From: Candidatus Binatia bacterium
GTDB lineage: Bacteria > Desulfobacterota > Binatia > UBA9968 > JAJDTQ01
Assembly: GCA_022823055.1 (NCBI GenBank)
Contig: JAJDXX010000040.1
Location: forward strand, 1 to 32,686
Direction of reading: 5' to 3'
Length of the DNA stretch: 32,686 nt
Shown here piece after piece: positions 3,786-26,391 of this stretch. A program made the position numbers and the translations under genes. Position 1 is the stretch's first letter. Every line of letters begins with the position of its first letter. The notes below the pieces were generated by a model. That model was not told the origin of the DNA, did no database searches, and was given only the letters and a program-made list of their open reading frames with translations.

Positions 3786-4815
3786 CCAGGAAGGACAGGC
3801 TCTCCCTGACCTCCGCCGGCATGTTGATGATCCCGTCCACGAGTTTCTTCACCTCCGGACCCGGGACATACGTGACCACGAGCTTGGCCTTCTTGGCTTC
3901 CGCCAGCAGCTTGGGGTCCTTCAGGGTCTTTTCGTAGGCCTTCTGCAGGATCTCCAGGCGGTCCTTGGGTGTGCCCGGCGGCAGCGCCAGCATCCGCTGG
4001 AACGCCATCTGGAACGCCCATGAGTTGTAGAGCTTGAGGCCTTCCTCGTTCAGCACGTCCTTGAACAGCGGAATTTTCTGGATCTCCGGATCCGGATAGC
4101 TGTGGCTGTCGATGACGAAGGGAACGAGTTTCTGGTCGCCCTCGGCGTCCAGCATGCTGCGGGCGGTCACCCTCATGGACTCCCACTGGGAGCAGAAACC
4201 GTCGATCTCTCGTCCCTCCAGCGCCAATCGTATGGTGGCCGTCCCCCTGTACCCGGTGATGATCTTCAACTTGGTGCCCATGGCCTTGTTGAGAATCGCC
4301 GGGATGTCGTGGCCGGTGGAGCCGGCCCGGGTGGCGCCGATCTTGATGGGCTCCTTGGAGTTGATGACGTCCTTCCACGTGGTCTTGCCCGAGAAGGCCA
4401 TCATCATGCAGACGATCTCGCCCCTGCTGGGAGCGCCGACCCATTCCATCTTGTCGAAGGGCACCGCGCCGGCCTTCTTGTCGCCTAGCGCCGACTGTAC
4501 GATGAGCGAGTTGTTGAACACCGCGCCGGTGAGGCCGTCGGGCTTGGCGCGCCGGCCGATGTAGTTGGCGGAGATCAGGCTGCCGGCGCCGGTCATGTTC
4601 TGAACGAGCGTGGTGGGGTTGCCGGGAACGTACCTGCCGAAGTAACGGGCGATCAGCCGGGTGTACGTGTCGTAGCCGCCGCCGGGGGAGAAGCCCACGA
4701 TGAAGCGGAATGTCTTGCCCTTGTAGAAGTCTTCGGCGCGCGCCTCGGGAGCCGCCAACAGGGCGGCGCTTGCGATGACGGCCGCGGCCAGAAAGGAAAA
4801 ACCCTTGCGTTTCAT
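3766..4815 (-). CDS. TctC/Bug-family substrate-binding protein, orphan
   Basis: This is a periplasmic binding protein of the tripartite tricarboxylate transporter (TTT) class, which captures carboxylates for a TctA/TctB membrane pair. A signal peptide is clear: MKRKG, a hydrophobic stretch and an ARA|ED cleavage near residue 27. It is followed by the family hallmark F-I-V-G-F-S-P-G-G-G-Y-D, with RLIARYFGRYVPGNPT and the M-T-G-A-G-S segment. The 349 residues are a little longer than classical Bug proteins (about 320) and similar to the 359-residue homologue at 28745. No TctA or TctB lies next to it, so it may use the system at 26476-28640 or another one. It is convergent with the ligase and divergent from the Sec-glutaredoxin. 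Confidence 0.9.
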   Translation of the reverse strand: MKRKGFSFLAAAVIASAALLAAPEARAEDFYKGKTFRFIVGFSPGGGYDTYTRLIARYFGRYVPGNPTTLVQNMTGAGSLISANYIGRRAKPDGLTGAVFNNSLIVQSALGDKKAGAVPFDKMEWVGAPSRGEIVCMMMAFSGKTTWKDVINSKEPIKIGATRAGSTGHDIPAILNKAMGTKLKIITGYRGTATIRLALEGREIDGFCSQWESMRVTARSMLDAEGDQKLVPFVIDSHSYPDPEIQKIPLFKDVLNEEGLKLYNSWAFQMAFQRMLALPPGTPKDRLEILQKAYEKTLKDPKLLAEAKKAKLVVTYVPGPEVKKLVDGIINMPAEVRESLSFLVSQTKK

Positions 4816-4865
4816 GGATGTCCCTCCGTTTCGGTTTTGCCGGCGTCGTCGACGCCAAGCCCCCT

Positions 4866-4894
4866 TGGCTACAGAAGTGGCGCCGCCATGTCAA
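4866..4894 (-). promoter_or_regulatory. Possible promoter for the orphan tctC-like gene
   Basis: Minus-strand TTGACA (4894-4889) is followed after 17 bases by TAGCCA (4871-4866). The -35 is perfect and the spacing ideal, but the -10 matches poorly. Confidence 0.3.
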
Positions 4895-4902
4895 GGCGCA
4901 CG

Positions 4903-4931
4903 TTGAGAAACGCACCCGCCGATGTTATGAA
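4903..4931 (+). promoter_or_regulatory. Likely sigma70 promoter of the Sec-glutaredoxin gene
   Basis: TTGAGA (4903-4908, five of six), a 17-base spacer and TATGAA (4926-4931, four of six) lie just upstream of the GGAGG (4941-4945) and ATG (4951). The implied leader is very short, about a dozen bases. Confidence 0.45.
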
Positions 4932-4950
4932 AGCATCCACGGAGGTACCC

Positions 4951-5184
4951 ATGGCAGAATCCATCATCCTTTTCACGCAGCCCGGTTGACCGCCTTGTCA
5001 TCGAGAGAAGGAGTATCTTTCTCAAAAAGGCGTCGATTTCGTGGAGAAGAACATTCGCGAGGACGAGGAGGCCCTGAAGGACCTGCTGGCCCGCGGTTTC
5101 CAGAGCACCCCGGTGGTCATCATCGACGGTGAGGCGGTGGTCGGCTTCGATCAGGATCGGATCGACACCCTTCTCGGGCTCTGA
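4951..5184 (+). CDS. Glutaredoxin-like selenoprotein (U-P-P-C active site)
   Basis: Glutaredoxins reduce disulfides or glutathionylated thiols in the cytoplasm. ATG 4951 has GGAGG 5 bases upstream. The frame runs to TGA at 5182-5184 with one internal TGA at 4987-4989. With that codon read as Sec13, the 77-residue protein is a complete glutaredoxin/NrdH-type fold: strand IILFTQPG, active site U13-P-P-C16, the middle part GVDFVEKNIRED, the cis-proline motif QSTPVV (Pro54) and the C-terminal VGFD-QDRIDTLL that contacts thiol substrates. Sec therefore replaces the nucleophilic N-terminal Cys of C-P-x-C. A two-stem SECIS-like structure follows at 4991-5032. The same gene uses TGA as its true stop. 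The internal TGA hides this gene from ordinary ORF calling. A decayed pseudogene is unlikely, since everything downstream is intact and conserved-looking. Confidence 0.9.
4991..5032 (+). promoter_or_regulatory. Putative bacterial SECIS element in the glutaredoxin gene
   Basis: A lower stem CGCCTT (4991-4996) / AAGGCG (5027-5032) is perfect over 6 bp. An internal loop (8 and 3 nt) separates it from an upper stem GAGAAGG (5005-5011) / CTTTCTC (5017-5023) of 7 bp including one G-U. The apical loop is AGUAU (5012-5016), with G as its second base. It starts 23 nt after the UGA, inside the usual window for bacterial SECIS elements. Confidence 0.8.
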
Positions 5185-5187
5185 CCG

Positions 5188-5209
5188 GGAGGCCGCGCCC
5201 GCGGCCTCC
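5188..5209 (+). terminator. GC-rich hairpin after the Sec-glutaredoxin gene
   Basis: GGAGGCCGC (5188-5196) and GCGGCCTCC (5201-5209) form a perfect 9-bp stem with a GCCC loop, three bases after the stop codon. There is no T-tract, so it may be a weak or factor-assisted terminator, or a transcript-stabilising hairpin. Confidence 0.5.
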
Positions 5210-5305
5210 AACCACGACCACCGTTCCCGTTCCGGCCCGGCGGGCGGAGCGTTCGCTCGAGCGCGTGCAATGCACCGCGCTCGACGGTTGCCCGGCGCGG
5301 TTCCC

Positions 5306-17631: not shown

Positions 17632-18711
17632 ATGACGGTTTTCGACGGCAGGCTCAGCCTCCAGTTCGTCACTCACTTGGCGAACCACTACACGGTCAAC
17701 CGTTTCGTGGAACTGGCCGCGCTGGCCCGTGAACGCGGATTCGAACGGATCTGGCTCAATGACAACGCACGCTACCGGAGCCAGGTGGTGGTCCTTTCCG
17801 CCATCGCCGCGCGCGTGCCCATCGGCGTCGGCACGGCCGTGCTGGTGCCTTACTTCCATCATCCCATCGAGGTGGTGGATTCGCTGGCGGCTCTGTCCGA
17901 ACTGAGCGAAGGGCGCGAAGTGGGCTTCGGGCTGGCGCGCGGTTCCACGACCCAGACGCCGCAGCACGTGACCATGCACAGGCCCCTGGCGCTGGTGCGC
18001 GAGCTGGCCGTGTTCGTGTCGCGAGCGCTGGCCGGGGAGCGCCTGGTCTATGGCGACTTCCCGGTCTTGTGCGAGCACTATCGCTTCAATCCGGCCGGCA
18101 GGTTCGAGCTGGCGTTCACGCCCAAGTCCCCCGTGGTCATCTATTCGGGCGGCAACGGCCCCCGGTCGCTGCGCATGGGCGGTCAGGTCATGGAGGGGCT
18201 CATCAGCTCGGGGACCTTCATCCCCATGCTGCGCGCGGGCCGGCTCGAGGGAATGCTCGAGCTGGCGGAGGCCGGCGCCCGGAGCGTGAACCCGAACAAG
18301 GCCCTGCGCAAGATGGTGGAGCTCAACGTGTCGGTATCGCGGGACCGGGACGCGGCCATGGAGTTCCCCAAGCGCCAGGTGGCCCATTCGATCCCTCAGT
18401 GGGAATCGCTCGGGTTCACGCCCGACGAGTACGCACGGCTCGGCGTGGAGCGGCAGCGTGTTCTCGATCTCAAGGACGCCTTCGCCCGGGGCGCCACCAT
18501 CGAGGAGGCCGCGGCCCTGGTCACCGAGCAGATGGTCCTGTCGTACTACGTCGCCGGCACCCCGGCCGAGGTGGCCGACCAGGTCGTGGAGCTGGCCGGC
18601 CAGGCCCAGGAGATGGGTTACGACGAGATCGCCTTCGCCAAGCTCGGCCCCGACTACGAGGAGGCCATCGAGATGCTGGCGGAGAGTGTCGTGCCGCGGC
18701 TCAACGGGTAG
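17632..18711 (+). CDS. LLM class flavin-dependent oxidoreductase, tandem copy 1
   Basis: This 359-residue luciferase-like monooxygenase or methylene-H4MPT-reductase-like TIM barrel has RGFERIWLNDNARYRS, VPIGVGTAVLVPYFHHP, LSEGREVGFGLARG and YSGGNGPRSLRMGG. It is collinear without gaps with the next gene (18754-19833, same length), with about four of five residues identical by eye. The start ATG 17632 gives MTVFDGRLSLQFV, matching MTAFDGKLSLQFV of the copy. The 42-base gap suggests co-transcription. Substrate and cofactor (FMN or F420) are unknown. The upstream region contains an unusually AT-rich patch at 17566-17600. Confidence 0.9.
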   Translation: MTVFDGRLSLQFVTHLANHYTVNRFVELAALARERGFERIWLNDNARYRSQVVVLSAIAARVPIGVGTAVLVPYFHHPIEVVDSLAALSELSEGREVGFGLARGSTTQTPQHVTMHRPLALVRELAVFVSRALAGERLVYGDFPVLCEHYRFNPAGRFELAFTPKSPVVIYSGGNGPRSLRMGGQVMEGLISSGTFIPMLRAGRLEGMLELAEAGARSVNPNKALRKMVELNVSVSRDRDAAMEFPKRQVAHSIPQWESLGFTPDEYARLGVERQRVLDLKDAFARGATIEEAAALVTEQMVLSYYVAGTPAEVADQVVELAGQAQEMGYDEIAFAKLGPDYEEAIEMLAESVVPRLNG

Positions 18712-18753: not shown

Positions 18754-19833
18754 ATGACGGCATTCGACGGAAAGCTCAGTCTCCAGTTCGTGATCCACTT
18801 GGCGAACCAGTACACGGTGAACCAACTGGTGGAGCTGGCAGAACTGGCGCACCGGCGCGGCTTCGAGCGCATCTGGGTCAACGACAACGCGCGCTACAGG
18901 AGCCAGGTGGTGGTGCTCTCGGCCATCGCGGCGCGCGTCCCCATCGGCATCGGCACCGCCATCCTGGTGCCGTATCTGCATCATCCCATCGAAGTGGTGG
19001 ACTCGCTCGCGGCGCTGTCCGAGTTGAGCGAGGGGCGCGAGGTAGGCTTCGGGCTCGCCCGTGGCGATCTGGCGCAGACGCCGCAGCACGTGGACGTGCA
19101 CAAGCCCATCACGCTGGTCCGGGAGCTGGCCGTGTTCGTGCGGCGCTCGCTCGCCGGGGAGAGCGTGAGTTACGGCGACTTCCCGGTGCTGTGCGAGTAC
19201 TATCACCTCAATCCCGCCGGCAGGTTCAAGCTGGCGTTCACGCCCAAGTCCCCGGTCGTGCTCTATTCGGGCGGCAACGGGCCCCGGTCGCTACGCATGG
19301 GCGGCCAGGTGATGGACGGGCTCATCAGTTCGGGGACCTTCATCCCCATGCTGCGCGCGGGCCGGCTCAAGGGGATGCACGAGATGATCGAGGCGGGCGC
19401 CCGCGGCGTGGATCCGGACAAGACCCTGCGCAAGATGGTGGAGCTCAACGTATCGGTCTCGCAAGACCGTGACGCCGCCATCGAGTTCCCCAAGCGCCAG
19501 GTGTCCCATTCGATCCTGCAGTGGGAGGCCCTCCAGTTCACGCCGGAGGAATACGCCCGGCTCGGCGTGGAGCGGCAGAAGGTGCTCGACCTGAAAGACG
19601 CCTTCGCCCGGGGCGCCACCGTCGAGGAAGCGGCGGAGATGGTGACCGAGAAGATGGTGCTCGACTACTACGTCGCCGGACGCCCGGAGGAGGTGGCCGA
19701 CCAGATCGTGGAGCTGGCCGGGCAGGCCCAGGAGCTGGGCTACGACGAGATCGCCTTCGCCAAGCTCGGCCCCGACTACGAGGAAGCCATCGAAATGCTG
19801 GCGGAGAACGTGATGCCGCGGTTGCGTGGGTAG
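18754..19833 (+). CDS. LLM class flavin-dependent oxidoreductase, tandem copy 2
   Basis: This is the second member of the tandem pair. The 359-residue product begins MTAFDGKLSLQFV after an AAAAGG-type ribosome site. It keeps all the landmarks of copy 1 (YSGGNGPRSLRMGG, KLGPDYEEAIEML at the C-terminus). Differences cluster in residues 104-118 (GDLAQTPQHVDVH against GSTTQTPQHVTMH) and in scattered surface helices, so the pair may differ in substrate. Divergence at many third positions suggests the duplication is not recent. It is convergent with the TPR gene at 19885. Confidence 0.9.
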   Translation: MTAFDGKLSLQFVIHLANQYTVNQLVELAELAHRRGFERIWVNDNARYRSQVVVLSAIAARVPIGIGTAILVPYLHHPIEVVDSLAALSELSEGREVGFGLARGDLAQTPQHVDVHKPITLVRELAVFVRRSLAGESVSYGDFPVLCEYYHLNPAGRFKLAFTPKSPVVLYSGGNGPRSLRMGGQVMDGLISSGTFIPMLRAGRLKGMHEMIEAGARGVDPDKTLRKMVELNVSVSQDRDAAIEFPKRQVSHSILQWEALQFTPEEYARLGVERQKVLDLKDAFARGATVEEAAEMVTEKMVLDYYVAGRPEEVADQIVELAGQAQELGYDEIAFAKLGPDYEEAIEMLAENVMPRLRG

Positions 19834-24098: not shown

Positions 24099-24167
24099 AG
24101 TGCTCGTGTGCGGGGTAGAGAAAGATACCTGTTGCGAGTCTAGGTGAATTCCGCCGAGGAGACAAAC

Positions 24168-25256
24168 ATGGCACGGAACGGACACCGCCTGGTAGTGGAC
24201 GCGGACGCCCACGTCCTGGAGACCGAGCGCACCTGGGACTACCTCGAAGGGTCCGACAGGAAGTTCAGGCCCGCGCTGTTCGGCTCGCCGGACATGGACA
24301 TGCAGTACTGGGTCATGGATGGCAAGATCCGCGGGGCGCGTTTCGCCACCTTGAGCGAGCAGCAGCTCGACGCCCTGTCCGAGAAGAAGGGGCGGCGGTT
24401 CACCACGCCCCAGGCCTCCCGCGAGGTGGACGACGTGGACCTGCGACTGGCGCACCTCGACGAACTGGGCGTGGACGTGCAGGTGATGCACAACACCATG
24501 TGGATCGAGCGGGTGACCGATCGGGCCGACGCCGAGGTCGCGCTGTGCCTGGCGTGGAACCGCTGGATGGCGGACGTGTGGAAGGCGGGGGAGGGCAGGC
24601 TCCGGTGGTCCTGCGTGATCCCGGCCATGGCGCTGGACGAAGCCGTGCAGCAGATGCGCTTCGCGCGCGAGCACGGCGCGGTGGCGGTGTGCATGCGCCC
24701 CTTCGAGGGCGACCGTCACCTGGTGGACCCTTACTTCTATCCCGTGTTCGAGGAGGCCTCGGCGCTGGACATGGCCATGGGCGTGCACATCGCCAACGCC
24801 AGCACCGGACTCATGGCGCACTTCCGCCCGCGCTACGACAAGACCGGCGGCTTCGCGCCGTTCCGCATCCCCACGGTGATCGCCTGCCTCTCGCTCATCA
24901 TGAGCGAGGTGCCGCGCGTCTTTCCCAAGCTGCGCTGGGGGTTCATCGAGACTTCGGCCCAGTGGATTCCGTGGATCGTCAACGAGGCCCGGCGGCGCTC
25001 GGGCACGGCCGACTATCCCGACAATCCCCTCAAGGAGTACAACGTCTACGTCACCGCCCAGTGCGACGACGACTTCCCGTACGTGCTGAAGTACGCGGGC
25101 GAGGACAACATCGTCATCGGCACCGACTACGGCCACACCGACACGTCCAGCGAGGTGGACGCCATCACGCGGTTCAAGGCGGAGCCGACGGTGGACGACG
25201 CGGCGCGCTGGAAGATCCTGAGCGACAACCCGAAGGCGCTCTACGGCATCGAATAG
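24168..25256 (+). CDS. Amidohydrolase-2 family protein, tandem copy 1
   Basis: This is a metal-dependent TIM-barrel hydrolase or decarboxylase of 362 residues in the amidohydrolase-2 family, which includes ACMSD and gamma-resorcylate decarboxylase. It begins VVDADAHVLETERTWDYL, with the metal-binding D-A-D-A-H. The LGVDVQVMHNTMW and VHIANAST regions provide further ligands, and the final Asp is in IVIGTDYGHTD. ATG 24168 is preceded by GAGGAGACAAAC. The next gene is a paralogue 49 bases downstream. A decarboxylase role would fit the UbiD neighbours, but hydrolytic function is equally possible. Confidence 0.88.
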   Translation: MARNGHRLVVDADAHVLETERTWDYLEGSDRKFRPALFGSPDMDMQYWVMDGKIRGARFATLSEQQLDALSEKKGRRFTTPQASREVDDVDLRLAHLDELGVDVQVMHNTMWIERVTDRADAEVALCLAWNRWMADVWKAGEGRLRWSCVIPAMALDEAVQQMRFAREHGAVAVCMRPFEGDRHLVDPYFYPVFEEASALDMAMGVHIANASTGLMAHFRPRYDKTGGFAPFRIPTVIACLSLIMSEVPRVFPKLRWGFIETSAQWIPWIVNEARRRSGTADYPDNPLKEYNVYVTAQCDDDFPYVLKYAGEDNIVIGTDYGHTDTSSEVDAITRFKAEPTVDDAARWKILSDNPKALYGIE

Positions 25257-25305: not shown

Positions 25306-26391
25306 ATGTCCGGCAACGGCAAGACCCTGGTGGTGGACTCGGACGCCCACGTGGTGGAGACCGAGCACACGTGGGACTACCTGGACGCGTCGGAGAAGAA
25401 GTTCCGGCCCCAGCTCTTCGCCCCCGAGGACGCCACCACGCAGTACTGGGTGCTGGACGGGAAGGTGCTGGGTTTCCGCTTCCGCACCCTGAGCGAACAG
25501 CAGCTCGACGAGGTCTCGGCTCAGGCCGGGCGGCAGATGCAGACGCCGAAGGAGGCGCGCGAGCTGCGCGACGTGCAACTCCGAGTCGACCATCTGGACA
25601 AGCTCGGCATCGACGTGCAGGTGCTTTACAACACGCTGTGGATCGAGCAGTTGACGGACCGCGCCGACGTCGAGACAGCCCTGTGCGCGAGCTGGAACCG
25701 CTGGATGGCGGACGTGTGGAAGCAGGGCGGCGGGCGGCTCCGGTGGGTGTGCGTGGTGCCGGCCATGACCATCAGCGAATCGCTGGAGCAGATCCGCTTC
25801 AGCAAGGAGAACGGCGCGGTGGGCGTGTGCCTGCGCCCCTTCGAGGGCGACCGGCACCTGGTGGACCCGTACTTCTACCCGATCTTCGACGAGGCCATGC
25901 GCCTCGACATGATGATGGGCATCCACATCGCCAACGCCAGCCCGCGCCTGGCGACGCAGTTCCGCCCGCGCTACGACAGCGGCGGCGGCCTGCCAGTGTT
26001 CCGCATCCCCACCGTGTCCACCTGTTTCACGCTGATGATGAGCGAGGTGCCCAGGGTCTTCCCCGACCTGCGCTGGGGCTTCATCGAGTCGTCGGCCCAG
26101 TGGGTGCCGTGGGTGGTGAACGAGACCATCCGCCGGTCGGGCACGGCGGAATACCCCGACAACCCCATGAAGGCCTTCAACGTCTACGTGTCGGCCCAGA
26201 CCGACGACGACTTCCCCTACGTGCTGAAGTACGCGGGCGACGACAACATCGTCATCGGCACCGACTACGGCCACACCGACGCCTCCAGCGAGGTGGACGC
26301 CTTCACTATCTTCAAGGGCAACGGCGCCATCAGCGAGGAGCAGAAGCGCAAGATCCTGAGCGACAACGCGCGGGCGCTGTATGCGCTGTAG
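25306..26391 (+). CDS. Amidohydrolase-2 family protein, tandem copy 2
   Basis: This is a paralogue of the preceding gene: 361 residues, collinear throughout, starting VVDSDAHVVETEHTWDYL (D-S-D-A-H for the first metal site) and ending with IVIGTDYGHTDASSEVD. ATG 25306 has AGGAGAAGG upstream. The identical HTWDYL..., WNRWMADVWK, RPFEGDRHLVDPYFYP and GTDYGHTD blocks show a shared fold and probably related substrates. Differences in the LFGSPDMDM/LFAPEDATT region suggest divergence in the active-site lid. It is probably co-transcribed with copy 1 and ends at the terminator at 26416. Confidence 0.88.
   Translation: MSGNGKTLVVDSDAHVVETEHTWDYLDASEKKFRPQLFAPEDATTQYWVLDGKVLGFRFRTLSEQQLDEVSAQAGRQMQTPKEARELRDVQLRVDHLDKLGIDVQVLYNTLWIEQLTDRADVETALCASWNRWMADVWKQGGGRLRWVCVVPAMTISESLEQIRFSKENGAVGVCLRPFEGDRHLVDPYFYPIFDEAMRLDMMMGIHIANASPRLATQFRPRYDSGGGLPVFRIPTVSTCFTLMMSEVPRVFPDLRWGFIESSAQWVPWVVNETIRRSGTAEYPDNPMKAFNVYVSAQTDDDFPYVLKYAGDDNIVIGTDYGHTDASSEVDAFTIFKGNGAISEEQKRKILSDNARALYAL

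Follow-up and report, generated by a model that had tools for sequence, protein, structure and literature searches.

Glutaredoxins in which selenocysteine (Sec) replaces the first Cys of the CxxC active site have been known for about twenty years. Ten such sequences were found in the Sargasso Sea data (PMC1088965), others were predicted in Geobacter sulfurreducens, Alkaliphilus and Moorella (PMC1794560), and a 2026 review lists them as UxxC proteins of the family PF00462 (PMC13188914). One of them, glutaredoxin 1 of C. oremlandii (Clostridium/Alkaliphilus), hereafter cGrx1, has already been characterised (PMC4479559, PMC7642778); it is a native selenoprotein with Sec at position 13 of a UPxC motif (UPHC, followed by KEFLS), and its known partner is a Sec-containing MsrA. 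The nearest curated models in the case studied here are those of the NrdH-redoxin (TIGR02194) and YruB (TIGR02196), which describe Cys proteins without the glutathione (GSH) motif. The mechanism of NrdH, which is fed by thioredoxin reductase, is known. Finally, the UXX-star selenoproteins (NF041212 and relatives) share a small glutaredoxin-like fold and have U in the corresponding position.

The gene that we describe here, from a Candidatus Binatia genome, is a further member of this known kind of selenoprotein, and the idea is not new, as reports of Sec-containing glutaredoxins go back to 2005 (PMC1088965, PMC1794560). What it adds is an extension of selenocysteine redoxins to Binatia, for which no report of a Sec glutaredoxin or of any selenoprotein was found in the literature searched (whose coverage was incomplete). 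The one paper in that literature joining Binatota to selenocysteine is a sponge methane-cycling study. The existing understanding of Sec biology is left unchanged by this finding.

The window (the whole stretch of DNA analysed, 32,686 nucleotides) is one contig of a 4.27-Mb metagenome-assembled genome. The gene lies on its forward strand at 4951-5184, stop codon included, and the reading of the initial annotation was accurate as to its landmarks: an ATG (4951-4953) preceded, with a 5-nt spacer, by a Shine-Dalgarno-like GGAGG (4941-4945), a TGA at codon 13 (4987-4989) and, after 64 open codons, a TGA stop (5182-5184). If the first TGA is read as Sec, the product has 77 residues (MAESIILFTQPGUPPCHREKEYLSQKGVDFVEKNIREDEEALKDLLARGFQSTPVVIIDGEAVVGFDQDRIDTLLGL), with Sec13 at the catalytic position of a UPPC motif. 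The resolving Cys of a cGrx1-like protein is present as Cys16 (TGT, 4996-4998), and so are, as had been claimed, the cis-proline motif of the thioredoxin fold (Ser-Thr-cis-Pro or STP, encoded by AGC ACC CCG at 5104-5112, read in the translation and in the alignment) and the C-terminal motif, here VGFD. With C in place of U, the product matches PF00462 (Glutaredoxin) over residues 5-63 with 56.2 bits (cut-off 22.9, E 4e-15). Its closest solved homologue is cGrx1 (PDB 7c10/7c12; the identity of 7c10 rests on its sequence and on PMC7642778), which aligns from residues 1-77 to 1-77 with an E value of 1.4e-20 and has its own Sec at the same position 13; the differences are the host phylum and UPHC instead of UPPC. 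The Geobacter, Alkaliphilus, Moorella and Sargasso proteins, compared by description, likewise have Sec for the first Cys of CxxC and a SECIS element just downstream (PMC1794560, PMC1088965). The gene escapes ordinary ORF calling, as had been foreseen: the mechanical ORF list has only unrelated overlapping frames at 4951-5184. Neither a sigma-70-like promoter nor a terminator was found around it. Elsewhere in the window, two pairs of clearly related neighbouring ORFs (17632-18711 and 18754-19833, of 359 residues each, and 24144-25256 and 25306-26391, of 370 and 361 residues) are apparently tandem duplications.

The nearest public relatives are two other Candidatus Binatia assemblies (L001 and L002), and both carry the identical TGA at syntenic positions. 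Codons 13-27 are letter-for-letter the same in the three sequences, with synonymous changes elsewhere; L002 departs from the window at 19 of 78 codons, and the fixed stretch 13-27 contains none of these (P 0.009). In the same comparison, pN is 0.014 and pS 0.333 over codons 14-77, from which we conclude that the frame downstream of the UGA is under strong purifying selection, the codon pattern of a protein read past this UGA. The more distant L015 (68% identity), in which the reading frame is also conserved, gives a pS of 0.68 and a pN of 0.20.

A search of the 395 genomes of the phylum retrieved a relative in 97 of them, and 69 loci (the best matches, together with almost every row in which an internal TGA was flagged) were read. 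The TGA falls exactly in the column of the first Cys in 51 of the 69, the window, L001 and L002 included, and the remaining 18 have Cys (UGC or UGU) there; these homologues being a biased sample, 51:18 should not be taken as a frequency. In all fetched matches flagged with one in-frame TGA, this TGA stands in the first-Cys column. None of the homologues is truncated, all continuing in frame beyond this column, and the UGA does occupy, as the initial annotation had it, the place of the first Cys of CPxC.

The same annotation had proposed a two-stem hairpin with the loop AGUAU 23 nt after the UGA. Its upper stem and loop are borne out by folding, homologue comparison and covariation: on the forward strand, GAGAAGG (5005-5011) pairs with CUUUCUC (5017-5023) in a stem of 7 bp, closed by the 5-nt apical loop AGUAU (5012-5016) with G at the second place. 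The spacing from UGA to loop is 22 nt, however, and the lower stem is weakly supported. Possible arms of the latter, GCCUU (4992-4996) and AAGGC (5027-5031), come from the minimum free energy (MFE) fold only, in which the lower part also includes 4988-4990/5032-5034; no single register is conserved, and 51% only is paired in the register seen in relatives. The published model of bacterial SECIS elements (loop of 3-9 nt with G within the first two places, spacing of 16-37 nt, upper stem of 4-16 bp and an MFE of at most -7.5 kcal/mol; PMC13188914) agrees in every respect with the hairpin of the window, whose MFE is -16.1 kcal/mol for 52 nt or -8.5 kcal/mol for 28 nt. Taken alone, the stability of this hairpin relative to shuffled sequences is modest (z about -2.1 to -2.3). 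The stem forms in just 63 of 100,000 synonymous recodings that keep the same residues and the codon usage of the window, and it is built on codons that are rare there (CTT, 3.7% of Leu; TCT, 2.0% of Ser). A search of the whole genome with the Rfam model SECIS_1 (RF00031) gave no match, and none in any control either, which makes it uninformative; cmscan of 4800-5300 gave a chance match only.

The upper stem is further supported by the comparison across the phylum. The loop reads AGUNN in 51/51 Sec loci, a Glu codon GAG is found in 51/51 as well, and each of the seven stem pairs is formed in 43-51 of the 51. In 38 sequences, 92.7% of the cells of the 7-bp stem are paired, versus 88.9% in shuffles and 29-66% in slid registers; 9 cells are changed on both sides, versus 1.1 in shuffles, and the covariation score was reached by none of 500 shuffles. 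The variants include C-G replaced by A-U and by U-A at alignment columns 20/36, and A-U replaced by G-C at columns 23/33. By contrast, the hairpin is absent from the Cys homologues as a group, the five middle and outer pairs forming in just 3-6 of the 18 (one Cys row, L039, may be misregistered, which does not affect the contrast).

The genome also has the full Sec pathway. The selA, selB and selD genes (579, 387 and 373 bits, all above curated cut-offs) lie together in a single run on contig C247; on contig C248 there is selC, with 73.1 bits against a gathering threshold of 47. The gene for SelD (G000:C247:6066-6992; L052, L091) carries a TGA, in frame and within the motif GUAAK, which we take to be the known Sec site of SelD, and is thus a selenoprotein gene itself. 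The co-occurrence of SelA with the redoxin gene cannot discriminate between hypotheses, since about 90% of the genomes of the phylum (355/395) have selA above the cut-off. In another genome of the same order (G198), we observed three UGA glutaredoxins with SECIS hairpins (L015, L055, L089); this metagenome-assembled genome, nominally 100% complete, has neither SelA, SelB nor tRNA-Sec above the cut-off. Its sel contig is probably missing through a binning gap, and otherwise a different explanation would be needed for this genome.

Given that the UGA is conserved, that the SECIS is constrained and covaries, that the frame downstream is under purifying selection and that the sel set is complete, we think that the gene is almost certainly that of a selenoprotein; its product, a small redoxin of the glutaredoxin/NrdH-like type, would have Sec13 of UPPC as its nucleophile and Cys16 as its resolving residue. 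The initial proposal of a Sec-containing glutaredoxin thus holds, and none of the three outcomes named there as refuting it (truncated homologues, a hairpin without covariation, a genome without the Sec pathway) was seen. SelB with Sec-tRNA(Sec) would bind the hairpin just 3' of the UGA, and Sec would be inserted instead of termination. According to the established chemistry of Sec/Cys redoxins, and by analogy with cGrx1, the Sec13 selenolate would then attack a target disulfide, and Cys16 would release the target, leaving a selenenylsulfide. The protein would accordingly be a selenol disulfide reductase, whose reactivity should be raised by the lower pKa and the better leaving-group behaviour of Sec. 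The pairing with a Sec MsrA seen in C. oremlandii is inapplicable here, as the two MsrA found in the genome are both Cys enzymes (GCFWG and GCFWC).

The origin of the electrons is less certain. The fold and the family name glutaredoxin are right, but glutathione as reductant is doubtful, and we lean towards a NrdH-like redoxin, the oxidised form of which would be reduced by the thioredoxin reductase TrxB. This preference comes from a good TrxB in the genome (405 bits), from the failure to find there a GshB-type glutathione synthetase, the one enzyme of glutathione synthesis searched for, with a search that does give matches in 8 controls, and from the residues of the product itself, which has STP and VGFD where a classical GSH-binding glutaredoxin has TVP and GGxD, as does the other, Cys-containing glutaredoxin of the same genome (L090, with TVP and GGFDEL). 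The alternative of a Sec redoxin that is nevertheless a classical glutathione-dependent glutaredoxin, with GSH and not TrxB as its donor, agrees with the top Pfam match (Glutaredoxin) and with the discussion of the monothiol form of cGrx1 in connection with GSH (PMC4479559); we consider it rather unlikely, though worth keeping in mind, in view of the above and of the top NCBIfam matches, which are of the YruB and NrdH types, both under their cut-offs (74.9 versus 88.55 bits and 59.3 versus 85.75 bits, respectively).

One could also suppose that the protein is not a redoxin but a member of the UXX-star selenoprotein families, for which a role as metal ligand was proposed, and NF041212 indeed matches with 52.1 bits (E 5.6e-14). 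This score is under the curated cut-off of 66 bits, however, those for NF041211, NF041114 and NF047338 fall short of theirs as well, and the product keeps its resolving Cys, whereas UXX-star family 1 is UxxT (PMC13188914), so this hypothesis seems to us very improbable. Even less credit should be given to a reading of the UGA as another residue (Trp, as in code 4) or to a read-through independent of SelB: an in-frame and conserved UGA would be expected here too, but 11 of the 22 major ORFs of the window, and the Sec-glutaredoxin gene itself, end normally in UGA, the residue aligned to it in relatives is Cys and never Trp, and the covarying SECIS and the full sel gene set argue against both versions. 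That a Cys codon became TGA in a pseudogene, or through a sequencing or assembly error, leaving a truncated product, would account for the mere pieces shown by the ORF caller, but we regard it as excluded for practical purposes by conservation, with this TGA recurring in two further Binatia assemblies and in the same column of about 50 loci across the phylum, a frame under selection after it and a SECIS stretch frozen among the Binatia assemblies.

Beyond the gene of the window, about fifty such genes are thus seen in related genomes, and ordinary ORF calling would split them at the UGA. It is conceivable, and we put this forward tentatively, that they belong to a group of Sec redoxins that is widespread in the phylum and for the most part unannotated, that is distinct from the GSH-linked glutaredoxins and that receives its electrons from thioredoxin reductase, Sec having been exchanged for Cys several times and the Cys members having a decayed SECIS. 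A tree of the 69 rows, with few columns and weak deep forks, calls for 7-8 exchanges of Sec and Cys, and therefore suggests that the family switched repeatedly between the two. The gain and loss of Sec can usefully be studied in such pairs of Sec and Cys forms, whose SECIS elements are live or decayed. Three Cys forms (L033, L043 and L036) are nested among Sec forms and have SECIS-like hairpins that are nearly intact (for instance GCGAAAG-AGTTT-CTTTCAA in L033 and GCCAAGG-AGTTC-CTTTCGC in L043); their sequences suggest that Sec gave way to Cys recently and that the SECIS is decaying. Another genome (G035) has several distinct UGA glutaredoxin paralogues (L017, L080, L081 and L083), which suggests a large selenoproteome, and two of these (L080 and L081) have ULFS instead of UPxC and have kept the SECIS, the predicted product being a monothiol Sec redoxin in which Sec was retained and the resolving Cys was lost.
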